Shown in pieces: positions 5,186-58,910 of a stretch of 64,000 bases of DNA. Position numbers and translations under genes: made by a program. A model generated the notes under the pieces. It was not told where the DNA came from, searched no databases, and saw only the letters and a list, made by a program, of their open reading frames with translations. Source of the DNA: Ceratobasidium sp. AG-K (lineage: Eukaryota > Basidiomycota > Agaricomycetes > Cantharellales > Ceratobasidiaceae); the NCBI GenBank assembly GCA_037039685.1, contig JAWNGF010000006.1, positions 248,001 through 312,000 of the forward strand, given 5' to 3'. Each line of letters starts with the position of its first letter. Within the stretch, counting starts at the first letter, position 1.

Positions 5186-8100
5186 TCAAGTCGCTGCGTT
5201 CTGCACCTTGGTTACCTTGAGCGGAAGCTTTGGCTTCTTTCCGGGCAGATCACGCTCCTTCATGAGGTACGGGAACGTCAATACAAACGGCTACATAGAC
5301 GCAAGGTGAGTACAGGTCCCGTGCGAATACAACGACAAACACTTGCCTGCCAATAGAATTCTTCCTCCGATGGCTCAAATTTGAACGAGTTGATGAAATG
5401 AGCAATTACGACCTCTGTGCGAAGGCATGTACTTAGTAATTTTTAGTGCCGGAAATGTGGATATGCTTACTGAGCTCCATAACCGCAAAAGCGAACCCGC
5501 TACGTGAAGTAGATCAGTCTGAAATCCGAGAAAGGTTGAGATTGTTGAATATACAGTCTTATACGTAGATATATGCGCATCACGTGATTGCGTTCCACAT
5601 GGTCTCGAGCTTCGGAGAAAGTTTTCCTCAGTTCTCTACTCTCAAGTAGCACGAGCTGAGGTATAGTTTAGATGTTTCTTTTCATTTTCTATTACTTATA
5701 TTACCTGTAGATACACGATTATCTAGGTATATATATACAAGTTCTCTACTCTCAAGTAGCACGAGCTGAGATACACGATTATCTAGCCCGGCACTGCGCA
5801 TATCGCAACAGGTTATGAGCCCTGGTAGCGTCAAAAGTGAAGCAGAAGAGGACCCAGTGAACGCTGTAAACGTTACTACCCCAACAATGGCATCGACCGA
5901 CGCTTACCTTAGTAAGAAAACCTACGAGATTCCGCTCTTGAAGGACGACGGATCCAACTACGATTCGTGGAAATTCCGCCAAACGACGGTCCTACGCATA
6001 CGAGGACTGCTCAAAATCGCTTATGGCACCGAAAGACAGCCTGAACCACTCACCGAGATCGATAAAAAGGACTCTGTCAAAGTGTCAGCCAATAAAACCG
6101 AAATCGAAAACTGGCAGAAACGAGACGATGATGCATTCGCTCAAATTACCTTGAACATGGAAGACGGAGCGATGGCCGACGTGAGGGAGACGACATCGGC
6201 GCACGAGGCGTGGACGAAAGTTGTCGAGCGCTGGGAAGGGAAAGGAATGCAGTCGCTTTCTTTCTGCTATAAGCAACTCATGAGCGCAAAAATCGAGGAG
6301 GAAGAAAACTTATCTGCTGGTTTCAATCGCATCCGATCGATTGCCTCGAAAATGAAGACCCTTGGCGAGCCCGTTACCGACCTACTGCTTGCCCAAGTCT
6401 TCATGAATGCGCTCCCCCCGTCCTATGCGATTGTCAGTACGATCCTCCAGACATCCACCCAGACCGGACTCATTACCTCGGAAATGGTCACAAATGCCGC
6501 CTTTACTGAAGAGGAACGACGGAAGACAGGCGACGGACTCACTGCGATGTATGCTCAAGCTCCCAAGCCGAAATCCAAGAAACCGAGCGATCCGAAAGGG
6601 AAGAAAAAGGCGAAAGGCCCCTTATGCGATAACTGCGCCAAGCCCGGGCACACCAAGAAGGAATGCTGGGCGAAAGGAGGCGGAGCCGAAGGGACTGGAC
6701 CGCACCAAAAGCGACGAGCCGCTAAGTCAAACGAGCCGAAACCAAGCGAATCGAGTACTGCACCTAAAACCGAGTCAGCCAAAGTGGCTCTGACACCCGC
6801 TGAACCCGAGGATATGCCGTCGCTATATGCGATGCCGGCCGTGGACGATCCGTCTGCCCGAGACACGTGGCTGCTCGACTCTGGCGCGTCAAAACATATG
6901 ACTCGAAATCGAGCATGGTTCTCGACTTACCAGCCATTGGTACCACCAATCCCAGTTCGAGTGGGCGACGGGAACCTGACTAATGCGACCGGAATCGGCC
7001 GTGTGCTGCTTACGCTATGCAACGAAGCCCGTCAGGAGACCGAAATGTTCATTGACGGTGTACTACACGTACCGGGACTGCATGCGAGCCTCATGTTGGT
7101 CAAACAGCTTGCCAAAACTGGCACCTTCGTTCTATTTGGCGACAAGGATGCCAGGCTCCTCGAGGACAAGGGCCGTGGACCCGAGATCGGCTATGCACGC
7201 GAGTTAGGTGTCAAGCTTTACCAACTAAATGCGCGAGTTAAACATGCCGAACCGACCGCTCACCTTGCCACTGTCGAGCCGGAGGGCCTGAACAATAAGG
7301 ACGACCTAGAAGCAAACGAGTTCATCGCATATACCGCCAGTCACATCGCTCGAGCCGACCTACATACCTGGCATCGCCGCCTAGGCCACATAAACTACAA
7401 ATACGTGCTGGATATGGTCAGAAAAGGCGCCGTTCAAGGAATGGATATTGTAGGAAGTTGCTTACCGCCGCAATCGAAATGCGAGCCGTGCCTCAAGGGC
7501 AAACAGACTCGTGCCCCGTTTCTGACGTCAACAAATCGAGCGTCCGACGTACTCGAGCTACTCCATAGCGACCTACACGGGCCTGTCGCTGTTCAAGCGA
7601 TTCAAGGCTATCTGTACTTTGCCGTCACGATCGATGATAAGTCCCGCAAAATGTTCGTGCACTTACTTAAGCACAAGAACGAATACGCGATGCACTTCAA
7701 AGAGCTAAAAGCGTCAGCGGAGAATCAAACGGGCAAGCGAATCAAGCACTTACGAACCGATGGCGGAGGCGAATACGCATCGAACGCATTCGAAGCGTGG
7801 CTCAAGTCGCACGGAATCAAACACCAAAAGACCGAGGCGGACTCATCGGCCAGCAATGGCGTTGCAGAGCAAGCGATTCGCACATTAAACGACAGCCAAC
7901 GGACAATGCGAGCAGATGCAGACTTACCCGACAAGTTCTGGGGGTTTGCCATCGTCCATGCCGCATACATCTGGAATGTGACGCCGAAACGGTCGCTTGA
8001 CGGCAAAACCCCGGACGAGGTATTCACGGGCAAGTTACCCGATGTCTCCCGAATCCGAACTTTTGGCTGCAAGGCATGGGTTCGAGTACCCGATGGCCAA

Positions 8101-11100
8101 CGTACCAAGCTGCAGGCAAGATCGCTCGAATGCACTTACCTCGGATTCGCTCCAGGTCGCAAGGCGCACATGCTTATCCAGCGCCCGATTGGTCGCGTAA
8201 TCACCTCACGCGACGTTGTATTCGATGAAGGAGGCGAAACCCGACAGCGAGTGATCATCGAGGACTTTGAGGACGAGTTCCCAGAGCAAGTGGGCGATCA
8301 AGAACGCCAAGAGCCAATGCCTGAGGTCGCTGTCGAGTCAGAAACCGAGCCAGAGCGCCAAGAGTCAGTAAACGAGCAAGAATCCGAGTCCGAGTCCGAG
8401 CCAGAAGAGTCGAATAGCGAGCCCGAGATCGAGCCGGCAAGCGATTCCCCCGTCGTGCCAGAGCCGCCAGTAACTCAGCCCGAGCCTCCACGTCGATCAG
8501 GTCGAGTTACGAGACCGCCGACACGATACGGAGCTGAAGTGGGCGCGCAGAACGAGACTGCCACGCGAGCCAATAAGCCAACGACCGAGAGCGCCATGAA
8601 TGCGCTAATTGAGCATCCCCCCAACACCTATGCCGAAGCGATGGCGCGTCCAGACGCCAATCTATGGCTCGAGGCGATGATCGAGGAGATAAAGTCGATT
8701 ACCAAGCACAAAGTTTGGAAACCGGCCGATAGACCGAGCCACAAGCGAGTTATCAAATGTCGATGGGTGTATGCATACAAGCGCGATGTCGATGGCGAAA
8801 TCCTCAAGTACAAGGCTAGACTCGTCGCCAAGGGATTCCTGCAGGCTCCAGGTGTCGATTATGTCGAGATATCGTCGCCAGTAGCCGCATCGGACGCATA
8901 TAGGGTGCTTTTCAGCATCGTTGCGAGTGAAGACCTCGAGTTACTTCAACTCGACATCAAGACTGCGTTCCTGCATGGCGTTGTCGAGGAGGAGCTCTAT
9001 ATGGAGCAACCCGAGGGGTTTGCCGAAGGCAATCATGTCTGGCAACTCGTTAAGGCGTTATACGGTCTGAAACAAGCCGCCCGAGCGTTTTACCTTCGAC
9101 TTAAAGAGGTTCTTGAGGCAATCGGATTCACACGGACCGAAAGCGATCATGCCGTATTCATTCAACGCGATGGCGATAACTTGGCGATAATTTTAGCTCA
9201 TGTGGACGACATGCTACTCGCTGGTAAACCTCTTTCATTTCTGGAGGAAATCAAGTCGAAAATGCGCAAATCATTCGATATTGTCGATCTAGGCGAGGCA
9301 CGCATATTCGTTGGTGTCGAAATCGAGCGAAATCGCGAAGCTGGCACACTCAAGATTTGTCAAAAGCGATATATTAGCGATATACTAGCTCGATTCAGCA
9401 TGACCAAGGCCAAACCGTGGGACACGCCAATGGCAGAGACCCCAAACCTGCCCAAACTCGATGCTCCTACTGTCAATCGAACGCTTTATCAGCGTGGTGT
9501 CGGATCGCTCATGTATGCGATGATTTCGACCCGTCCCGATATCGCTTTCGCGACCGGTTTGCTTGCCCAACACGCCGCTAATCCTGGCGACGAGCATTGG
9601 TCAGCTTTCAAGCGAGTTTTGCGGTACCTACAAGGCACGAAGGCACTCGGGATCGTATTTGAACGATCGAAATCGTCCGACCCGATCGGATACGTTGACT
9701 CTGACTACGCTGGCGATCCGAATACAAGCCGATCGACTACCGGCTGGATCTTCCAACGTGCCGGAGGGAGCGTCGCTTGGTCATCCCGTAAGCAACCAAC
9801 AGTTTCCTTATCGAGTACCGAGGCCGAATACGTCGCCGCTGCAAGCGCCGCCCGCCAATTGATTTGGCTTCGTCAATTCCTTGATGAACTCGGATTTTTG
9901 TCCAAAGGTCCGACAACCTTGCTTACCGACAATCAATCGAGTATCGCATTGGCCAAAAACCCCGTAAATCATCAAAATACGAAGCATATACGAGTCAAAC
10001 ATCATTTCATTCGAGAAGTGATCGCTCTTCGCGAGGTCGATCTCAAATTTATTCCGACCGACCAACAGGTCGCCGATGCGCTTACCAAACCACTCGGACG
10101 CGTCAAATTCCCCGGCTTCATTGCTGGGATGGGAATGTTTTGAAAATTTCTTTTCATTTTTCGTCTAATCCTGAGTGGGCGTGTTGAATATACAGTCTTA
10201 TACGTAGATATATGCGCATCACGTGATTGCGTTCCACATGGTCTCGAGCTTCGGAGAAAGTTTTCCTCAGTTCTCTACTCTCAAGTAGCACAAGCTGAGG
10301 TATAGTTTAGATGTTTCTTTTCATTTTCTATTACTTATATTACCTGTAGATACACGATTATCTAGGTATATATATACAAGTTCTCTACTCTCAAGTAGCA
10401 CGAGCTGAGATACACGATTATCTAGCCCGGCACTGCGCATATCGCAACAGAGATATACGAGCACGCACATGCAATTACGAGGACCCAACCCAAACGTGAG
10501 CCTATGCTCAATCATGTCAGATAATCAGTCGGAATTTTGAAGGAGCTCTCACATGGAAGAATAGACGCCAGGTAACTGAAGACCCGGTTCAGTGACCTCC
10601 TCCAACTTGGTACCGATCCAACGCTCCGGTAAGAACTCGTCCGCTCGTTCGCCCCAGATTTTTTCGTACCGACCCGACATGGTAAGGCTGACGAATATTC
10701 GGTCACCCTTCCTCACAGGAACACTCGTGATTTCCCCGCTCGGTGTGTCGGTGGGGAATGTGAGTGGAAGAATAGTGTCTTCCTCACATCTGAAAGTGAT
10801 TTTGGATTTAGTAGCTTACTCGTGTTAGTCCCCAGGTCATGAACAACTTACTCTCTAAACATCAAGGAAACCGGACTCCATAGACGAAGCGTTTCCCGAA
10901 CGATTCCATCAAGATATGGGAGCTCAAGTAAGCCATCCTGTTGGGTGACATCCGGATTATCTTTGAAGAATCGAGTTACCTCCCCGCGTAGCCTATCTTG
11001 AACGTTCTGGCGATTGGATAGCTCGGCCAAAAGACGAGCCACGGCGGTACTGATCCGGTTACAAATCTACGTGTTGGAACCTGTTGCTTATTTTTACGGA

Positions 11101-39830: not shown

Positions 39831-40559
39831 GATGGTAACTAATGAAATGGATTGCCAAAGCCACTGTTTGGGAGACTGCACGTGACTAACCGACGGCATT
39901 TATGGAGATGCCATTCATTGCGCATCGCCCGATGAACCTCACGTACTATCAATGATTTGCGTTAGAATCATAGGAATTGCATAGCACTTCAAATGCTAGA
40001 GAGATGAGTTTTTGAAGAGGAATCCCTGGTGGTATACCCGGGAAAACAGCCTTTGCATCTATAATAGCCTCGGGAGCCAAGGTATTATCCGTAGTTATCG
40101 TAGCCAAGCAAGAAGATCAGAATTCGCAGTACATAGATATTTGAATTTATAATATCCACGAGACCCCAGCCAGCTCAGTAATATACAAAACCCTTGATAT
40201 GTATACACTCTGGTGTCAGTACGGAGACACGATGTATGATTTATTCCATGAGTGTTCACGGGCACTCAATCCATAGGAGGGCGTGAATTTTGAGTGGCCA
40301 GAACCAACCCTAGGCTTACTCAATATGCTTGAGCTGATAGACCGACGCGATTCTTCACCAACGTGGAGACAGCTATTCCCGCATTGCAGCTCCGACACCA
40401 CCAGTCCCTCTTTGCTTCGGTGAGCACAGCCTCACACATATCTCTACAGTGGCTACCTTTCACGTTCAAAATTCCCTTTCATTCTCACACTGCATCCGAT
40501 ACAACAATCACTGAGCGAGGTTACCCTCTGCTTCACTCGGTTTCGATGTGCCCCGTAAA
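39831..40559. other. intergenic
   Basis: No gene or repeat that I can support. Confidence 0.4.
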
Positions 40560-43500
40560 TTAGTTTTCCCCCTGCCTTGCCAGAATAATCCTTGCCATCT
40601 GCTCCGTTTAACAGTCATGTACCCTCCGAGTCTAAGGAAATACTCACTCTGTCTCGTACCTCAGCAGAGGTCGGGCGATCTTCTGGTGTACGAGTCCAGC
40701 AGCTTACGAGAAGTGCCCACAAAAGGTCTCCGTGATTGACCTGCGACGGTATATGCTCGTATGGTCGTTTGGGATGTGCACCCGTTATTATCTTCGTAAC
40801 AATAATGGGCTCGCGCATCCCAGCGTATGGTATCGATCCCGAGATCACTTCCTATAATGGGGTCAGTTCTCCTCGTGTACCTTACTCCTCCTGAAGCGTA
40901 CATAAATTGTCTGTAAGATGTAGTTTCAGTTGATATAGCTCTGTTTTACGGCTGCGGACTTACCATCCCGAGTGAGTACACGTCGGCCTCAGCGGTCAAA
41001 GTGGAATCCTCATCGAGCATCTCTGGAGCCTACGCTTTCTTTATTATCATTCAATCCTAAAATCAAATGAAGAATTCGTACCACCCAATTCAGAGACGTA
41101 GCGGCCCGGCTGGTGGTGGTCGAAAACTGCAATGTATAATGTCTCAAGGTTGCGTTCCCAAAGTCGGTTAGTTTGGGTATGAAATCGTCTGAAATCAGAA
41201 CGTTGTCCTAGCGTAATGCACAAGGAGTTAGCGCTAGGAGTTGTTATAAGATGTTGTTGAAATGGCCATACGCCCTTGAGATCTCCATGAACCTGACCGT
41301 AATATTTGAGTTCAAGGCTGCCAATATATCATGTGGGCAAGAAGTGACTTACCACGCCAACGCTATGAAGATACGCAACTCCATCGGCGATTTGCATGCA
41401 CTTTTCATTCTGGATTAGCCTATCACAGCCTCGCATTGGAAATGACGCACCAATCCATAGCGGTCGGTATTGGGCTCGACATCCAATAAACGCCGCACAT
41501 TTCCAAAGCCCATCCATGGAGAGATCATTGCGAGTTGGTCTCGGTGTTGGCCGACCCCAATCAGGCCCAAAACATTGGGGTGGCTGCACTTCGACCACAC
41601 ATACAGCTCCCGGGCAGCGTGCTATGCGTGACATTAGAAGTGCATATAGGTGAGTAAAACACTAACTTTAAGCTTCTTATCTGTAGCCTCGCTTGGTTCC
41701 ACATGTAATCTAAGGCACTTGACGGCGACCAGGTTCCCGTCACGTAGCGTACCGCGATACACATCGCCAAATCCTCCTGATGATATCGGGTACTCACTAA
41801 AGTTGGACACGTCAAGCTGATCTGTCATATCTTTGCAGCCGTGTTGATCGAGATGTTCGAGGATAACAGCTATGGGCTGGCAGAGAAGGTGAATGTGGTT
41901 TAACACGGAGGGTATATAAAGTGCTTCTGGGGCACATCACCATTTGACGCGTGATTTTGGCATAGCTGGTGATGTTTGCTACATTCAGAGTACCACCTAG
42001 TTAGGCACGCTATTAATCTTACCGGGGGACGAGTTTAGTTCGATCCTGCAAAACCAAGGAGCGGTCAGGCTCTGCGAGAACATATAGCTTCAAGCACGGA
42101 GGGGTAACTCGTGTTCGGCGTCAATTGCCCCAAAAAACGACGAGCAAAGAAGGGATTGCAAAAGCGGGTGTACTGATATCTGACACATGCATATACCAAC
42201 CTCGCTCATCTCCATGCTTTTGTTTTTCTCGAGGAACTGACGATTTTGAACTGAATGAGTAATGGTGGGTATCAACATGTACAGATGTACTTACGTGCTA
42301 TCAAGTATTAGATATAGTGTTATGTAGTCAGTTTCGCGCAGAATTAATGCACCACAAAAGTGCTGACTTTCTACCGGTGTAGGATGGTTTAGTTGAAACA
42401 TTAATATAGTCAGTACAGGGGGTATATAGCTTACCACCTGTTATAGACACCCCCTGTAGTCAGTCGCGGGAAACCATTTTCTCGAGAGCATTGAAAGAAC
42501 GTACCGCCTGAGAACGAGTAGTAGTTTATAACATATGAGTCTAAACCTATAAGAGGCAGGTAGAGTGCGTACACGCTAGAGGTAAGCACGTTAGCGGAAG
42601 GTTGGGTGAGGTGCCGTCGTAGTGTGAAATGACATACGTCCTGAGGTGAAGAGTGTGAGTAGCTGAATTGACGAACTGATTATCAAAGTTATGCCTTTAG
42701 CCCACTTACTTTCTGAGTGCAGATGGTGCGTGTTGTGAACGCAAAAACAAATCAATAAAGAGGAAAGGCATACAGCCTGGCGGCAAACAGGTTGGATCGC
42801 ATATAGGACAGTTACGGCGGCCGAACTCACTTGCTAATGTATAATCCCATTCCGGCTAAATCAGGATTTCCTTACTAAAACAAGATACCCGAATACTCAC
42901 GTCCTTGGTGAAGCAACCGAAGAGGAGGTAATGAGGCAGTGGGTCATATGATACCATCGCATGAATTGAAGTAGTGCTAACCAACTATATATCGACCGCA
43001 AATAGTCAGACAAGTTAGTAGCAAGACTCGTATCGCAATGCAAGACGCACGTTTTCAATTGGCGATGGCTATTTTAGGCAAAGTTGAGCTAGCTAATGAG
43101 GAGGGGAAAAACAACATACGTCCTGAAGTACGAGGGGCAAAAGCAAGCCGTTACAGAGGTCAACTCAATCGGATGAATGCGGTAGAACTGACCCACTGGG
43201 GATGCGCTAGTCAGTCCCGTGATTTTAGCGCTTATTTTGTACATACCAGCTAAACCCACGCAGTAATACCAAGTTAAGGTGACAACAATGAGTGGATTAA
43301 GTAGACAATGCATCAGTCGGAATTTTCTTTGCTCCCCTTCTAACTTAGTTTGGACGTACCCCCTAGAGCCACGTTGTAATTTCCAGAATAAGCAGAAAGG
43401 TTGTAGATCGTAAAATCAATAATTAATCCTTGAGTAAAACGCATGAATCTCACGTACCAACTAAAGGTTTGTAGTGTTTTTGATGATAATAGCGATGGGC

Positions 43501-46089
43501 GAGCGCATACAATTACCGCATCAATTTCAGCTGTATTTGGTTTGCGTGTAGGGCAATACGCACCGACTATAATCGTATAGTAGCGCCAGGTGGTGTTAAC
43601 GAAATAGGTTGGGAGGTGGGCACGTTAGCTGTCGTTATTAATTCTCTCGAGGAGTTGTACATACCCACTGGAGTTGCGGACCGATACCAGATCGCAGCGA
43701 GCAGAAAAAAATATCAGTGGTTAACATCCAACATCTCGTGTGTTCGATACTTACGCCCTAAATTCGCGTAGTATTGCGGGGTAATGGTGGTGTCAACGAG
43801 CCAGTTTTGGCAAACATTGTATCGTTAGCATGCTATCTACATGAAGCACGGTTTCTTGTACATACCACCTAGTGGTGTGGGTACCATGAGGCGGGTTGAA
43901 TTACAAGCGAAAGTAGAGGTGCAGGTTTGGTTATTAATAGATCTTCCCTGATGTGCGTGGTTACACTCACCGGCTAGAGCCGCGCCGCATCATCCAGGAA
44001 TGGGAAAACGATGGATGCGTGGAGGCGCATTGTATTAGTCAAACATCCCCTCTTCCCATTTCTGTTGTACAAACCTCCTATGTTCATGGTTGCAAAACAA
44101 TAACAACAACAGCAGAATGATGGATGATAAATGGCAGCCTGGTAAGTTCCCCCCAGACCGATAGATCGCTCGCACGCACATACTGGTCCAGACAACATAC
44201 ATTGTTCGGTGGTTAACAACGTCAAATATGTTTGAAAAAGAGTCGCCTGAGTTAGTACTCCTCAATCCTTGTGGAGGTATGATCATACGTACAATCTGTA
44301 GTTTCATTGAAGTTCCAGATCAGAGCAACGACGGCGCCAAGCACAGATGATATTCTTGTTAGTTATAATTATCCCGATCCTGGATGTATCCGATGCGTAC
44401 CCACTGAAGAAACGCAAAGCAGTGCCGGATGGGAGCAGTGATAACAGCGAAAAGGCGCAGGCGAGTGTCGGGTCAGCTGGGCTACTACCCTCGTCTCTTG
44501 TGTAATTCGTACACACCCACTGAAAGTGCATAGTGGTTGCATGGGCATATCCGAGTGATGAAAAAAAGTACATTCAAATGCCACATTTGTTAGTCACACC
44601 ACGATGCGTATGTTTTGTACGCACCTCCTGGGTTCATAAACCAGCACCAAATGAAAACAACGATGATGAGAAGTTGCAGAAACCCGTTTTACACAACGAT
44701 CAGCGTTCTGTTTGTTACATAGGCATTTCATACGCACTCTCTAGAGTCGTGTGACAGCGCCGAGAACCACCGATAAAAACGACGCGCGGGTGAATAAAAC
44801 GAATATATATATACGAATGGCTCAGACGTACTCCCTGCCTCTACATCATGGCGTTCGATTCAAGTAGAATTCGTCCATGTGATATCGCACCTGATGTCAA
44901 CTGTATGCTTTTAACTATCTCACATTCTACTCACACGCTATTTACCAGTTCCAGAAAGGTCTCGGTCTTTCAGATCTTAATAAAGATCTTTGCAAACCCG
45001 ACTCACGATCTATGGTTACAGTAAGGTTACCATCAGCCCTCGTTCCCTCTACGGATGGTTCGTATACTCGCCTCCTAAGCCACCGTTGCGAAGTATTGAT
45101 AAGTGCCTGTCGCTAGCCGGCGGTTTTTCTCAACTTACATACTATGATCCCATGAAATGAGTTTCGAAAACAAACCAATGCCGACTCTAGCCTAAGTTAC
45201 ATGCCCCATGAACCCAATATCACTTACACCCTAAATTTTCAGAGATAGGAAAAACCATAGCCACAATTAGATGGATCTTTTCACGGGCGTAAGACGATAT
45301 GACCACTTACTTGCTATATGCAAGTCGATCAATCAAGGGGTCCAACCTCATTGTCAGTACGGATATCGTTCAAACGAGCACAGATAGACCTACCCACTGA
45401 AATCGTGAAAATTGCTTCTGAGTGAGCCGATCTCACGCAAAGAGTTTGATGCAACTTACAGTCTAGAGTCAGGGCATTGGGGTGTCATCAGCGGGTTTCT
45501 TTCTGAACGACTAGGAGACTACTGACCCACTGCAGGACGCGTAGTGAACGACACAATTTCAAGTTGATGTTGGTCATGTGTGGCCGGTGTGCGAATCACA
45601 GAAGCGGCAGTTAGTTCCGATTTGTTCTTTCAAGGGAGCTTCACGTACAGTCTGAGGTAAAAAAAAAAAGGCGGCAGGAGCCAAAAACAAAACAGTCAAG
45701 TGCGCGTTAGCGAACCATGCACCTATCTGTACCGGCCTGCGCCTGTCAATCCGGTACGCACTTGCTGATCGTGGAGTCGCCATGCAGTAAGCCCACCCGA
45801 CAACCGAAATAAGAACGATCCGATCAGCGATGGTCCAGTCCACGACTCATTAATACGCACGTGCTGGGTTCATTCCAGCCCGTAGTAGGAGAAAGGTTCA
45901 ATAGGGAAAGTGTCGAACATGTCAGCGCCGCGATGATAGAATACTGTATAGAGATACATACATCCGGACCCTACACATACATTCGATATACATTCGATCG
46001 TCAAGGCGTCGAAAGTTCCAAATGTTGCAGAGTATATCAGCGAGTCGATTGAGTAGAGAGTAGGCATGACGCACCTGATCCCCAGACAT
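40560..46089 (-). CDS. TKL-type protein kinase with an N-terminus built from 40 single-codon exons
   Basis: Proposed model of about 373 residues. Start ATG TCT GGG GAT CAG at 46089-46075, then a 9-nt exon at 45970-45962, then 40 exons of exactly 3 nt (positions under the array feature), then ordinary exons 42236-42201, 42045-42023, 41965-41941, 41876-41667, 41621-41451, 41400-41353, 41292-41272, 41207-41082, 41029-40964, 40910-40902 (9 nt), 40851-40648 and 40598-40560. The kinase domain reads LDQHGCKDMTDQLDV, a Gly loop SSGGFGDVYRG, AVKCLRL (Lys), ELYVWSKCSHPNVLGL, HGDLKGDNVL (catalytic Asp), TDFGNA, APEML and ADVYSLGMTIYEVISG. All catalytic residues are present. The kinase exon at 41876 has no good ATG of its own: conserved sequence continues upstream of the first Met, so upstream exons are required, and the tiny-exon chain reaches it in phase. 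The kinase part is sure; the array part is inference. Confidence 0.68.
42295..46089 (-). other. array of 40 consecutive 3-nt microexons (AG-NNN-GT)
   Basis: On the minus strand, an acceptor AG, three bases, then a donor occur at (plus-strand start of each triplet): 45861, 45762, 45649, 45527, 45460, 45394, 45311, 45228, 45139, 45072, 44935, 44832, 44738, 44625, 44517, 44401, 44293, 44180, 44075, 43971, 43866, 43755, 43665, 43564, 43458, 43360, 43247, 43193, 43120, 42982, 42901, 42831, 42774, 42710, 42638, 42573, 42505, 42435, 42368, 42295. Introns between them are 51-135 nt. Typical units read CTTTCAG-TGG-GTGTGT, CTCCAG-TGG-GTATGT, CCTCAG-ACT-GTACGT, CATAG-TAT-GTAAGT. One donor is GC (GCGAGT at 45071). 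In frame 0 the triplets contain no stop and are rich in Trp (six), Gly, Asp and Glu, with segments such as QTWTWQGYERG and EPVGWSLGLWD. Confidence 0.7.
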
Positions 46090-47417
46090 GATAACATTAG
46101 TTCGTAGTTTAGTTGTTTAGTACCAGCGAGTTGCATCAATAGTCAGTACCGTGCTTGGCGAAGTGGATGTAATGCAGGTACGTACGAACTAATGTTATAT
46201 CGCGGCATACCGCCAGAAAGGTTCATCAGCTCAGCTATAACAGGCAATCGGGTCGATTTATACTCACATCTGTCTCTTTCTCAGCCTGAGGGGGCGCGCG
46301 GTGGACGGTGAATCAGCACTTATTGGAGGACGAGATATATCGTACGTACCCACTAGTGGATGGATTCTTAGCGCTGGGGATGAAATAATTAGTTGCATAC
46401 ATACAATTAGCTCGATTTCCATGATAAGATAGTCGTTTGGATCTGGCTCTTGCGTATGCTGCCCTTTGCGCGATACGGATAGTCGTTGTCACGGGGCGAA
46501 CACCCGATATCCCATCGTAGAAATTCATAAGCGCCAATTACATAACATCCCGTTTAACTCTCGGCAGTGGAATCAACTCCGAGTATTCACAGAATTACCT
46601 GGCGGCCGCTTAGCTTGGGTATCCGTGGCTCCTCGCTTATGAGACTCGGATGACATGGTTTGCACTGTTATGAGGGATAGGCATAGTGAGGCTGTGGCAC
46701 TCAACATTAGATTCCTGGGAGACGAGGATAGGTATCGTTTGATGGAGTCGAGGCCTTAGTGCGGTCATCACCCCGTATTTAGTATTTCGCGTCAAAATTT
46801 GGCCACGATAGCCTTGCCGTCATATCTGGTGTTGTTTTGGGGGTGTAATATATGCAAACAAGCGTTCATAGGGGCGATTCTCGTCGAATCCAGCCCACAA
46901 ATACGGCACCATTCACGGACAGATAAGCCCAGATGCCTCAACTAGATCCTATCATGCTAGAATGTTGCGCCTTGAGCTAGTCATTCTTCCTGAATGGAGT
47001 CAGTTTTAGACCGCAAAGTCCCTCAAGCTAATAGGTTAACAGATTATATTATCAAGTCTGGCAAAGAAAAGTGAAGGTCGGGCTTCACACTACACTTGTA
47101 TGGTCTACGTACACTTTTTTTTGCCCGGCGGAGAGTCTGGGTGACTTTGTACTGGTGAAGTTCACGGACAATCGATATTTAGTCAGTCGACTGGAGCTGA
47201 GCATAAAAAATTATAACGTAGTAGTGCTCCGGCATTGACACTGCTATAACGTTAATCACGTTGTGGGCACCTTTTTATATTGGACCATTCGACGGCTTAG
47301 CCACCGCTTGGCAACTTGACGAGCCACCTGTGTTAGGTAAGCGGACGCTTACGCAATGTTTTCGCGTGTGATTCTGCCTAACGACGACCGCGGGTCCTAT
47401 TGCGATCCTTAACCTCT
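46090..47417. other. intergenic; two further AG-NNN-GT units at 46350 and 46186
   Basis: Upstream of the proposed kinase start two more units of the same form occur on the minus strand: CCACTAG-TGG-GTACGTACG (46350-46352) and CATTAG-TTC-GTACGTACC (46186-46188). They may be 5' UTR exons or part of a longer N-terminus. The rest, from about 46400 to 47417, shows nothing I can support. Confidence 0.4.
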
Positions 47418-50400
47418 ATGCGAATCCCAATTCTTCCTTGGCTGATAGCATTTATCTCAAAAGCATGGGTCATGGAAGCAAACGCGAGACAAAACGTATT
47501 TCAAGGCTCGCATCTCCCTTCCATGCAGTGCCAATGGGTGGCTGAAATCCCGAGCGATTTTAAGGTTAGTTTCTTATTTAAAACCGCTTGTCGAATACTC
47601 CCATCAATTCGGAATAAACTGTGCTCACTTCTGGCGTGCGATGCGTGTCCGCATTTAGGTTATTGGACCTTTCCCGCAGTAAGCTCCGGTTCGCTTTGTT
47701 CGTTGCGGAAGGCTTAGGAACCTAATAGAGAAGCTCGTGAACAACACTTTCTGAACCCAGGATACCCTTTCAAATGTAAAGTAAAGTATTGTTCATCTGG
47801 CTCAAGATAACGTGGCCTTGTTACAATAGCTGCAGTGGAATTTCCCTGGGATTTTTCCCAAACCTTCCCATCACATCTGGCAGACGGTGGAGTTATCTAC
47901 TGGAAGAACGAGTCGGTTACTACTGAATTCACTGCTGCGTTGCTTGAATCCAATCGTCCAATCAGCGCACTGGCTTCGGCCCATTACTCGGTATCTTTTC
48001 CTGAGACCCGGTGGGAAAACATTCGCACGACCGAAGGCTGGGCCGGACTCCAGCATCATGCTTTGCTCCATACAAAAATCAGACTCATTCCGCCTCAGTA
48101 TTCCATTGGCTCAATATGTCCAGTACCGACCTACCTCAAAATCTCAGCCTCTCAATGTTCTTTCATCGCTATCCTAGATTCTCGCTACAGGGCATCCAGC
48201 ACCCCTCATTGGCACGCCTGCAATATCTATGCGTATTCTGGTGCTCCTTTTATTCGAATCCCAATTAACTTTGGATACATCTCAAGCAACAACTTCACCG
48301 AATCTGAAACCCCCCAAGCCGCGACGCCCATGCACGCCTTTGCAATCAATGCCGGAGAGGGAGAGATCAGCGAGCTGGACATATTAATAAGCTTGGACTA
48401 CGAGATAAGGCTTTTCGGAGACCCTACTGTATCCTCCAACTTTACCATGCCAACAATTCAGGCAGACTTGAGCGTCCACTTGGAGTCAGACTACTCAGCA
48501 AACAGGCCAGAGGAAACGCAGGTGCCTCATCAATCCACTGGTATAGTCAGAGAATTGAGATTCCGCCCTTGCTTCCTGGCTGATAACGCTGGTGCTCATG
48601 TATTTCCCGACTTCGTTGATGGTCAAGCGTTTGGGGGTGCCGCTGGATTTGAAATTACGTCTTGCTCATCAGAAGCATGAGATTGGAGCGCGCAGATATA
48701 TTCCACAACGCAAGCTCACTTAGCGTAAGTAATCCATTTTTAAAATAAGTTACGCCCATTGAAGCCAGCTACATTATTCCCAAATGTAGTACTTACAAAT
48801 AAGAGCTAAAGAGAACACGATCCTTGCTCCATCCCAGACACGTCTTCTTTCGTTTGACTTGATTCAGATAAGCGCATTACCCAGCTCGGCAACAACACTC
48901 AACATTGAGCTTCATCTAACGTCCGCGTTTTCAACGCCTGTTCAGCAAACCTACACCATCCGGGCAACGATTTCTGTAGCGCACCACCAATCACTCTCAA
49001 AACTCATGGGTGGCTCTGACGGGATCCTTATGACCTACCTCACGGTATCGGGTGCTGCCGCCTCAGCCGTGTTAATCCCTCCTTCCAGCCTTGACGAACA
49101 GGAAGTCACTCACAAGACCCGAATACTGCTCGCGATGCATGGTGCTGGTGTAATGCATACATCCCCATTTTGGCTCTCGGCACTTCCGCGCCCCGCTCAC
49201 GCCTGGCTGTTAGTTGTACAAGGACTCACACCATGGGGGCTCGATTGGCGAGCAGCATCTCGAGCAGACGTATGCTCCGCGTTGAGAGCATTAGTTTTAT
49301 TGATACGGCTTCCCGGCTACTGGTCCGAAGAGAATTATTGTACTGCAAATGATGGGCGCCAGTCGCACAGTATATACGCCTACGACTCAGACCTCGGGGA
49401 GAAACCCATCCCAGTGATTGCTATTGGCCATTCAAACGGCGGACAAGGGGCTCTACAACTTGCATCGCTGTTTCCAGACAACATTCCTGCGTTGATACCA
49501 GCTGCCGGGTATACTAGTGCCCGACTTTACATTTCCACCCAACATTCTCGAGGGTCCCTGTTTGCGGATGCGACTCTACAAGGGATTATGAGAGCAAGTC
49601 TGCAAGGACAAGACGGAGATTTAGTAGCTGGAAATCTAGTGCTATGTCGAGGTGAGGGAATTATAACTTATTTCTTGTGTGTGTTGCGGAATTTTGAAAT
49701 ATTCAATAGTTCGCCTGGTTCACGGTGGCGATGACGAAAACGTACCTGTATGGCACTCGCGCGAAAGAATGACGCTAGTTCAAACCTGGAATTCACGTGC
49801 CGACATAAAGTAAGAGGAGTCAATATATGTCGACCGCAGCCATTTGAAATCCTTCCTTCCCTAGTTTAACTGAAGTCCCTGGCAAACCACATTTCTGGGA
49901 TACTGTGTTTCACGACGAACCGGTTCTCAGTGCTATCAATGATCTCGTTGAATCTCCGCATGCGATTTTGAGTGGCCCTGAGGTAGATTTTACATTCACC
50001 GTTGTTTGGCCCTCCGAATCAGGAGCGATGCATGGGTGGCGAGTGAGGGAGCTCACCATCCCTGGACGGTGAGCACCTTTCTTGTTTCGCCACTCCATGC
50101 TAATATTCACGTCAGGATATCGCGGATTCGTGTAAAGGGAGATAGGGTCAAGACCACCAATGTGCATGGTTTATCGGTCAGACTCTTCAAGGCTGAACTA
50201 ACCCCAGGGAAAACGGTCAATATCGATGGGCAAGACTTTACAGTACCCAACCAATCTCACTTTTGGCTTCGCCGTGGAGAAGATTCCCAATGGAAAGTGA
50301 GTCGAATTGGCCTGTACCTGCATATCGTGAGCATGACATCCTACCAGCTCACTCGTCCGTTTACTCCACGCTCTTCGGGGCCGCTATCCAGCATATTCAT

Positions 50401-56610: not shown

Positions 56611-58910
56611 ATGGATTCTCAGGCGCATATCCGCTGGGGGGAGCCCTTAGGAACCTATGTCAAATTCTATAACCTGGATGCGGCGAAACGGCGGGGCACG
56701 CTAACTCGAGACGCGCAAGACGAAGCGGTAGTAGCCATCCAGAAAATATGCGGGCTAGTGGATATCACGGGGTCTAGTACCGACTCCTCGGTCCACGCGG
56801 CAGGTGGTATCACCCTATCGACACTCAAGTGCATATCCAATCTTTTTGTCGATCCAAACAGTCTTCATCATCTTGGACGTCCGTACCTCGTGAGCGGATT
56901 TATCAGACTGATGCAAGAAGTAACGTCGACTGAAAAAATATCTGTGAGCATTTATCAATTAATGCTGTCTCAACTTTTAATGTTTTCCCAGTTGTTCAGA
57001 TTTGAGTATGGGTATCTTTGTTTTCGAATTATGACGGTCGCGCTTGGTGTGTGTTTCCTAGATCGCGCAGGTCATCTCGACAAAGCTATCAGTAGAATGC
57101 TTTCCGACACTGACACTGACACTGACACTGACACTGACACTGACACTGACACTGACACTGACACTGACACTGACACTGACACTGACACTGACACTGACAC
57201 TGACACTGACACTGACACTGACACTGACACTGACACTGACACTGACACTGAGCTACTCCTCGATTTATCTGGATATGTTTCTGGTACGATCTCGAACTCC
57301 AACGAACGCACCGAGGGCGATAGTCCAGACCTACGTAATTGGGTTCTCGGGTGGACAAGCTCCGCCGCACCCAAATTCCTGTACACGCATCGTTTTCCTC
57401 AGCTTGTCTCGCCGGAAGAGGCGGGAATCCTACTGAATCTTCTCTGGGAGGATCGGAAACTATTCTTAGAAGCATTCATGTCTACATACTCGCCAGGCTT
57501 ATCAGGAGTAATGTTCCTACTTTGGCGATACGTTCATCTCGAACGGTGCGTGAACTGCTGGTCAGAAACCGATAGCGCCATGTTATTGACCTTTTCTGAT
57601 AGATCCCGCCAAGCACACCCCGACCCTGATCCTTACCGATTACTTGTGCCTTTCCGGGAAATACTGTGGCGGTACTGGTTCGTTGCAACATCAGAGCAAG
57701 ACGCTCCAATTCTGCACATTGTAAACGATATCGATATTCTGTTGCACGAGTGGGACGAACGTCTTTGGCTTGTGGATCTTGAGGATCTACGCACAATTTT
57801 GAAAGCTTGTTGCAAGCGACTCGCACCAACAAATACACGAATTAACACCCCGCTCGAGCCGTTATTAATCGGCTTGTTTCTAAACTTTGTAGTTCCTCAC
57901 TTGAAAGCTGGTTGTGAGGACCTTCTACCCCAACTCTTCCAACTTGTTATTCCCCGGATGTGGGATGCCTCGTGTGATGCTGATGTATCCAATGAGGAGC
58001 TTGTTGAGCTAACAGTGATGATATTTGGCCGCTTCTCGTAAGTCTTTAGTTAGATGCTCATTGGGATGGTAATTTTGCAGGGTATTGACATTACCCGCCC
58101 TACCAGCATGATACTTAATCACATTCGATTACCGGATATCAGTACAAACCAGTTCCACCTATCTCTCCTATCGGACATTGTCGATGCCATGATTAAACAT
58201 GACCTACTGGATTTTGTTGCCCAGGCAATGCTAAAGCTTGAGCCGGCTACTGGAGGGAAATCGAATTCAATTGGTGATTCTGTCTTGTCTCTTGATAACC
58301 GCCCTTTAGGCTGAGTTTTTGAGTCTAGAGCGGAGCCCAGTCTTTCATGTCGTCACTCAACAATTGTTTGACGACCTAGCTGAAACATCGCCTGAAGGGT
58401 TTTTAGAAAGATGTTTTCAGAACCATGCCCGTGACTTGCTGAAAGTCAAAGCGCACCTGGCTACAGTCGCAATGTCTATGCAAGATCTCTCGCTAAACAA
58501 AGGTGGCGACTCACATTTCCTTCACTATCGCGCATGTCTCGAAACTTGGGTCATGGTATCCGGATCCCTCGATCAGACACTCAACACCCACCGAGCTGAA
58601 CGACGGTTATTTAGATGCAATTCCCAGAGATGTGCTACTATAGTTGAAGCAAAACTTTGGGCACTATTTAGCTGTGACGCGTGCGTTTCAGTCGCTTATT
58701 GTAGTGCACGTTGTCAAATCTGGTAAGGTTTAATGTGTAGACTGTAGAGCACAATGCTCACATTATTTGCTTCTCCTTCTAAGGGACTGGAGCTGTGGTG
58801 GCGGGTCTCTACCGCACAAAAGCCAGTGCCACCAATACGTCAAACTTAGTCATATTCCTGGTACGGTGAGAAAACTATCCCAGATGGTCCAGCCGGAACC
58901 CGCATTGTAA
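56611..58910 (+). CDS. MYND zinc-finger protein, copy 2, with an Asp-Thr repeat
   Basis: The first exon (56611 to about 58030) is the longest of the family: MDSQAHIRWGEPLGTYVKFYNLDAAKRR, a Ser/Leu-rich middle, then 24 Asp-Thr pairs, then LLWEDRKLFLEAFMSTYSPGL and helical repeats. Later exons carry FHLSLLSDIVDAMIKHDLLDF, FHVVTQQLFDDLAE and the MYND finger (CNSQRCA, FSCDACVSVAYCSARCQIWDWSCGGGSLPHKSQCHQY), ending with TAA at 58908-58910. The intron near 58031-58080 is unclear. The donor used by the other copies (phase 2, GTAAGT) would put the next exon out of frame, as if one base were missing. A GTGATG donor 39 nt earlier would keep the frame. The gene may thus be intact with a shifted donor, or newly frameshifted. 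Confidence 0.65.
57106..57249 (+). repeat. (GACACT)24 in-frame hexanucleotide repeat
   Basis: Twenty-four perfect GACACT units, 144 bp, coding for alternating Asp-Thr in the MYND copy 2 frame. The hexamer keeps the frame whatever the unit number. Neither other copy has it. Confidence 0.95.

Follow-up and report, generated by a model that had tools for sequence, protein, structure and literature searches.

Several described genes contain exons of only a few bases. The NACHT-ANK (nank) family of the truffle Tuber melanosporum has tens of codon-sized, 3-bp mini-exons that are alternatively spliced (Iotti et al. 2012, as reported in PMC3689799, PMC4986451, PMC9815663, and PMC10197012). In fungal NOD-like receptors (NLRs), e.g., Podospora hnwd, the WD, ANK, and TPR repeats are near-identical apart from a small number of hypervariable sites, which are under selection (PMC4986451, PMC9815663). 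Micro-exon genes of Schistosoma encode secreted proteins from exons of 3–81 bp, with introns of up to 5 kbp (PMC10526429), Drosophila homothorax has a single, alternatively spliced 3-bp micro-exon (PMC7392893), and zero-nucleotide recursive splice sites were described for long introns (PMC13149111). According to a paper from 2024, no functional microexons had been described from filamentous fungi until then (PMC11121469), which shows that the truffle case is little known.

We analyzed a 64,000-nucleotide (nt) stretch of DNA (hereafter, the window) from a fungal genome of 53.6 Mb in 17 contigs (G000). On its minus strand lies a gene for a protein kinase, whose N-terminus is predicted to be built from 42 single-codon exons. 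The original prediction, which was made from the letters of the window, knew of no described gene of this kind; the truffle NLR family, with dozens of 3-bp mini-exons according to the papers citing Iotti et al. 2012, is one. In the literature searched, from which most subscription journals were outside the coverage, the truffle arrays were the only earlier single-codon-exon arrays, and no report was found of such arrays from a basidiomycete or a kinase gene, nor of arrays built of tandem intron-plus-codon units. We assign a probability of about 0.72 to the reading that this is a kinase gene with an N-terminus made of 42 single-codon exons and that the arrays of its family are tandem intron-plus-codon units varying at the codon, together with the mechanism proposed below.

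Inspection of the window sequence revealed 40 consecutive AG-NNN-GT units between positions 42295 and 45863 of the minus strand, all in phase 0 and with 0 stop codons. The spacing was specific to three bases, i.e., AG-N(k)-GTRNGT occurred 31 times with k = 3 in 42201–46089, and 0–2 times with any other k from 0 to 30. When the region was extended to 42201–46440 the count at k = 3 was 33, whereas 1000 dinucleotide shuffles averaged 0.37 and reached 4 at most; this is the comparison with shuffled sequence that had been proposed along with the original prediction. Across both strands of the window, the top count at k other than 3 was 5 in any 3-kb stretch, and on the plus strand the k = 3 count was ≤3 in every 3-kb stretch. 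The introns of the 40-codon run are 51–135 nt long, mostly with GTRNGT donors and with TAG or CAG acceptors. For all 42 single-codon exons, 33 donors are GTRNGT, and the acceptors are TAG (n = 22), CAG (n = 19), and AAG (n = 1). A branch-like CTRAY motif was detected in 25 of the 41 candidate introns of the run, as a raw count with no background control. We rejected one further match to the relaxed pattern, a GTG triplet at 42437, because counting it as an exon would imply an intron of 13 nt and the paralogues show nothing equivalent.

If acceptors are located by scanning onward from the branch point until an AG is met, a long AG-free stretch should precede them, and the length of this stretch is a signal independent of how the 40 units were picked. 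The median AG-free run before the 40 acceptors was 63 nt, compared with 11 nt for minus-strand AGs overall and 8 nt for the 140 other AGs in the array region, and the largest of 20,000 resampled medians was 25.5 nt. There is no open reading frame of ≥150 amino acids between 36706 and 47810, as the original prediction had said of the 3.8 kb holding the array. Its further point, that the triplets are free of stops, is correct as a count (0 stops); by itself it is weak evidence, because 42 codons would lack stops by chance with a probability of ~0.13, i.e., (61/64)^42. Given these patterns, 40 single-codon exons, predicted to be spliced in phase into the kinase, are the supported and best reading of the window.

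By comparison with paralogues the gene start was shifted upstream and the model was closed (Table 1). The predicted gene starts at 46422 on the minus strand and has 57 exons, including the 42 single-codon ones, which form an open frame of 382 amino acids into the kinase, in the order MEIELI-W-AEKETD-F-(zero-base AG/GT)-GPD-HQTWTWQGYIRGREWWIYEPVGWSLGLWDLDQAKDRAGKH-FLEKNKSMEMSE-linker-kinase (a slash marks a splice point). The run of 40 and its phase continuity into the kinase exons, both claimed from the start, are thus borne out under predicted splicing, and the chain also includes two single codons upstream (46350–46352 and 46186–46188) beside the 18-nt and 9-nt exons. The gene start had been misplaced: the ATG exon proposed at 46075–46089, with a CAG-GTGCGT donor, has no ATG in the paralogues C3a, C7b, and C12, and its end is a zero-base AG/GT site. 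The kinase domain scored above the Pfam cut-off (PF07714, 153.3 bits; PF00069, 146.7 bits), and kinase-type families were the only ones found by Pfam on the predicted protein. The kinase has the same C-terminal residues as P0001, a protein from a contig of 828 bases with 98% identity. The exon closing the array is 36 nt long in six genes (the window and the five others named in Table 1) and 30 nt in C12.

In the genome, 179 matches to the kinase family were listed, from 135 scored of 669 candidates. The best 30 of the 179 were cut out and gave 22 kinase loci for examination, of which 13 had single-codon chains upstream of the kinase. The codons were listed for ten of these (the window, its copy, L006, L007, L008, L009, L012, L014, L024, and L029), and L010, L013, and L031 were counted as chain loci from their spacing spectrum and their 98.2–99.9% identity to a listed neighbor. 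No chain was seen in the other nine loci within the stretch covered (≤1.5 kb upstream), and chains may lie farther out. The window locus (40001–47500) has an inverted copy on the same contig (C6, ~654749–661999), with 99.1% identity over 7253 aligned bases. The named proteins among the best 120 database relatives of the kinase were from Rhizoctonia and Ceratobasidium, and on this sequence comparison the host organism is Rhizoctonia-like. Two more distant kinases on C3 (L029 at ~594 kb and L031 at ~486 kb; a 98.4% identical pair) are preceded by roughly twelve single-codon units of another spelling, and their arrays are perhaps a separate subfamily.

The paralogues were also used for the comparison of relatives suggested with the original prediction, and codons were kept where introns were saturated. 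Four genes could be matched at 11 single-codon positions, in the blocks TWTW and K..A..H, and pairwise they shared 5–7 of these amino acids. The nine introns between matched codons had an aligned identity of 0.67–0.73, compared with 0.70–0.71 for shuffled introns. Some selection is built into this comparison, because the positions were chosen for being matchable; still, the persistence of codons amid wholly replaced surroundings would be hard to explain without coding. The zero-base AG/GT site was at the same place in 5/5 genes compared (the window, C3a, C7b, C7c, and C12), 114–119 nt past the previous codon and 94–105 nt ahead of the next exon, with an AG-free stretch of 33–117 nt upstream. 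The background density of such sites was 0.11 per 210 nt in four of the five sequences. The kinase ends of C7b and C7c (L007 and L024) are 91.8% identical, and because these two are closely related the five sites amount to about four independent cases.

Six arrays (C7a, L069; C7b, L036; C3a, L037; C3b, L070; C7d, L072; and C7c) have a middle part in which the unit is an intron of 106–109 nt plus three bases. Counting only units with the modal intron length (34/36, 14/22, 15/16, 21/23, 21/25, and 9/10), the diversity of introns within the arrays was 0.021–0.098, and that of the codon columns was 0.39–0.76 in 6/6 arrays; the codon columns ranked 1–6 by diversity among 109–112 columns. Counts on aligned units gave 0.095 for introns vs 0.66–0.73 for codon columns in C7b (18 units), and 0.049 vs 0.51–0.71 in C3a (15 units). 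In C7a, ten identical 109-nt introns precede GGA (n = 5), CGA (n = 3), CTT (n = 1), and GTT (n = 1). The tandem part of the five uninterrupted arrays is predicted to hold 17–37 codons, and the six spans together have 138 codons with 0 stops, including 32 for Tyr, 23 for Arg, and 17 for Gly. In the window, the introns in the middle of the array (43250..44831, minus strand; ~87–113 nt) resemble each other, with a mean pairwise score of −2.7 vs −6.7 (standard deviation 0.37; 60 mononucleotide shuffles). This part may be an older, decayed tandem array, and shared intron make-up may explain part of the likeness.

The concentration of variation on the codon points to diversifying selection. An alternative is that the codons are spliced in and the variable run is a flexible spacer of changing length, its differences arising from relaxed constraint and biased copying. 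This would suit the recurrence of few codons, as if a small set had been copied (22 kinds in 138; TAT, n = 32; CGA, n = 22), and the varying unit number between near-identical copies. However, relaxed constraint predicts a codon diversity equal to that of the co-homogenized neutral introns, not one ≥7-fold higher, and identical introns stand ahead of different codons. We therefore consider a mere spacer unlikely, and the array sequences indicate that diversification at the codon level is probable.

The arrays C3a and C3b have flanks that are 99.88% identical over 3426 bp, with 17 vs 24 codons that are spelled differently, i.e., YGEYYRV-(204-nt degenerate unit)-RRGEYRYRYR in C3a and YGELYRVRLYREYVYVEEYRYRYR in C3b. 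Both ends of the two arrays match, and the middle differs in unit number and spelling. This is turnover at the unit level, and unequal exchange or conversion would be the likely process. A framework Glu codon of C3a (position 5296 of L037 joined to L012) reads AG/GAG/GCTCGT, with GC replacing the donor GT, which suggests that GC-AG introns occur within arrays.

Introner elements are near-identical introns scattered across unrelated genes. One intron unit had at least 31 matches, at three places of the C7b and C7c loci, and the C3a intron unit had at least 128 matches at nine places, six of which were at array-bearing kinase loci that were read. As the matches were clustered, not dispersed among unrelated genes, the introner reading was rejected. 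The remaining three places for the C3a intron unit (C5 at 2.126, 2.155, and 2.292 Mb) were not tied to an examined kinase locus, and are possibly more arrays or orphan pieces.

Two database proteins, P0006 (1539-base contig) and P0002 (1707-base contig), continue without a break across positions at which our genes are interrupted by introns. At the start of P0002, M-N-H directly adjoins FLDGHPEVTLSE; in our genes three single-codon exons occupy that position. Their short contigs and missing introns suggest that both derive from complementary DNA (cDNA), and they provide indirect RNA support. The single-codon exons could also be mainly a library at the RNA level, in which combinatorial skipping and inclusion generate more diversity per transcript than exists between genes. 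All units are in phase 0, so any subset would be in frame, and the citing papers report alternative splicing for the Tuber mini-exons. On the other side, codons already vary greatly at the DNA level, both among units and among copies, and most donors and acceptors look strong, which disfavors systematic skipping. Such a library is somewhat unlikely in our judgment, although it ranks above the flexible spacer.

Several observations weigh against reading the arrays as translated and diversified peptides. In the rows listed, the codons of the window do not differ from those of its 99.1% identical copy. Diversifying selection was judged from column diversity and not from a codon model, and the 138 array codons are not independent because the units are copied. 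Nine of the 42 single-codon donors in the window deviate from GTRNGT, and competing AGs lie close upstream of some acceptors; the two most affected of the 40 have one at 4 and 11 nt, respectively, and many C7a units have one at 5 nt. One expected codon is missing in C3a. A codon predicted from paralogues near 43050 has no AG directly ahead of it in the window; this exon was probably lost, leaving the 135-nt intron there, or replaced by an 18-nt exon. The latter, PSPIEN near 43080, may be an alternative to the lost codon, and was included in the early query peptides (protein, structure, and Pfam searches) and later removed from the final model. Other spacings are also raised in the homogenized arrays (C7a, 19 at k = 8 and 13 at k = 4; C7b, 16 at k = 2; C7c, 13 at k = 2), because fixed repeat letters recur, and the clean spectra of the window and C12 are therefore the better test.

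The protein-level evidence has similar weak points. P0001 begins inside the kinase, and the cDNA status of P0001, P0002, and P0006 is itself deduced. A protein search with the window array peptide returned no candidate, a composite of framework peptides scored 0 of 6775 candidates at expectation values (E) up to 10 in an insensitive search (database of 5.8 billion), and there was no convincing array-peptide match within the 120 kinase relatives. Such searches are insensitive because the pieces are so short. Pfam found no match on two array peptides (window and C7b) at E up to 1, with no WD, ANK, or TPR repeats, and a search of solved structures gave nothing useful (best E = 1). Finally, the C7c array is split between two tandem units by ~7 kb (C7, ~832.6–839.5 kb, with L071 within) carrying a reverse-transcriptase/RNase H open frame, so some family members may be dead.

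Part of this would also be expected of a noncoding or dying tandem repeat, whose AG-NNN-GT grammar comes from tandem-copied introns, whose three-base slot is unselected, and which the kinase messenger RNA skips. The array-free relatives (9/22 loci within the stretch seen), the absence of a spanning product from the searches with array and framework peptides, the retroelement in C7c, and the weak splice sites are in line with this. Yet the framework codons agree at 5–7 of 11 amino acids despite saturated introns, the 138 array codons, non-independent as they are, have no stop, and the window array stays in phase across 40 diverged units, with conserved exons at both ends. Moreover, a neutral slot is not expected to be far more variable than the surrounding intron. 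A noncoding repeat is accordingly the least likely of the alternatives, and very improbable, whereas splicing and translation of the array codons is, from the sequence patterns, highly probable.

Exon definition is implausible at 3 nt, where the same exon would be contested by U1 and the factors of the 3' splice site. We propose that the short introns are recognized by intron definition and that the units are added one after another, with every newly attached codon exposing the donor for the following step, because a 3-nt exon has no room for factors on both sides at once. The zero-base AG/GT sites seen near the start of the genes would fit such stepwise splicing. Arrays may grow and shrink through exchanges among their near-identical intron units, consistent with the repeats and copy differences observed, and the gain, loss, or swap of a codon would leave the frame intact because every unit is in phase 0. 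Diversifying selection would then act on the peptide, as the observed pattern of variation suggests. The variable peptide between conserved flanks could serve the kinase as a putative sensor or as an arm for docking, in the manner of non-self recognition; for a recognition role of the array peptide we see about even odds. More tentatively, and with the odds slightly against it, the family could be a germline 'codon cassette' receptor system, in which identical introns would be recombination platforms and the putative sensor peptide of the kinase would be re-spelled, lengthened, and shortened residue by residue in frame, giving an open-ended recognition repertoire.

Table 1 Features of the single-codon-exon kinase gene and other features of the window. 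Positions are those of the window; parts of the gene are predicted and listed in the order of transcription.
Feature	Position	Strand	Evidence or remark
First exon, ATG, MEIELI, donor GTATGT (predicted)	46405..46422	-	Same first exon in paralogues: MEIEIV (C3a), MEIKIV (C7b), MEVT (C12)
Single-codon exon TGG (W)	46350..46352	-	W there in the window, C3a, C7b, and C12
18-nt exon AEKETD	46268..46285	-	Paralogues: VERKNS, VEKTDY, IEKQDN
Single-codon exon TTC (F)	46186..46188	-	Paralogues: single codons S, K, K
Zero-base splice point CAG/GTGCGT	46074..46075	-	AG/GT at the equivalent place in 5/5 genes
Probable 9-nt exon GPD	45962..45970	-	Single codon GGG there in C3a and C7b; in-frame model
40 single-codon exons spelling HQTWTWQGYIRGREWWIYEPVGWSLGLWDLDQAKDRAGKH	42295..45863	-	Spacing, in-frame model, conserved framework codons
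First bases of array exons 1–14	45863, 45764, 45651, 45529, 45462, 45396, 45313, 45230, 45141, 45009, 44937, 44834, 44740, 44627	-	
First bases of array exons 15–28	44519, 44403, 44295, 44182, 44077, 43973, 43868, 43757, 43667, 43566, 43460, 43362, 43249, 43195	-	
First bases of array exons 29–40	43122, 42984, 42903, 42833, 42776, 42712, 42640, 42575, 42507, 42453, 42370, 42297	-	
36-nt exon FLEKNKSMEMSE closing the array	42201..42236	-	FLRNNPEEMLSE (L007), FLRNNPTMTLSE (L012); 36 nt also in L006, L008, L009
Two linker exons, DRTKLVPR...YAKITRQM	42023..42045 and 41941..41965	-	In-frame model; resembles DKTRIIPY of L012
Protein kinase domain, nine exons to the stop	40560..41876	-	Pfam; C-terminus as in P0001
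Open frame of 1457 amino acids, long terminal repeat (LTR) retroelement	5770..10143	+	Copia-type gag, integrase, and reverse-transcriptase families
Perfect 6-base repeat (GACACT), 24.3 copies	57106..57251		Within the 476-amino-acid open frame
Open frame of 476 amino acids	56611..58041		No Pfam match above cut-off

If this reading is true, the spliceosome can join dozens of 3-nt exons serially, and stepwise intron-definition splicing becomes directly testable. It would also provide a route to a hypervariable stretch of protein: shuffling would move single codons, each packaged with a near-identical intron, and because of this composition exchange inside the introns could not shift the frame. 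Such genes would slip past ordinary annotation, in keeping with the database searches, which found no array-peptide protein at the sensitivity reached. Taken together, the basidiomycete kinase family and the truffle NLR family suggest that exons of codon size either are old in fungal genes of the recognition type or evolved there repeatedly.

Compared with the described systems, as far as the accessible portions of the papers present them, the gene shares a spliced 3-bp exon (predicted here) with homothorax, which has one such exon and not a chain. Like the Schistosoma micro-exon genes it is built from very short exons, and no long single-codon runs with tandem introns were seen in those. Its zero-base AG/GT resembles recursive splice sites in the acceptor-like sequence upstream, in the conserved place (5/5 genes), and in lying inside an intron interval; unlike the sites in long introns, the interval here measures ~210 nt, and a series of tiny exons follows it. 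By analogy, the highly conserved repeats of fungal NLRs appear to be the closest evolutionary counterpart, with near-identical tandem units, hypervariable codons (6/6 arrays here), copy-number change, and reshuffling (C3a vs C3b) in common; the unit there is a whole protein repeat, whereas a unit here comprises an intron and a single amino acid. With truffle nank the family has in common dozens of 3-bp exons (42 in the window model, predicted), expansion as a fungal gene family, and a proposed diversification of a protein region. The truffle genes are ascomycete NLRs with a C-terminal recognition domain, whereas the host here is a Rhizoctonia-like basidiomycete and the array is at the N-terminus of a kinase. 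The tandem intron-plus-codon units at the DNA level and the conserved zero-base splice point further set the family apart from nank as known from the citing descriptions. What is new relative to the truffle is the phylum, the kinase, the N-terminal position, and the intron-plus-codon unit.

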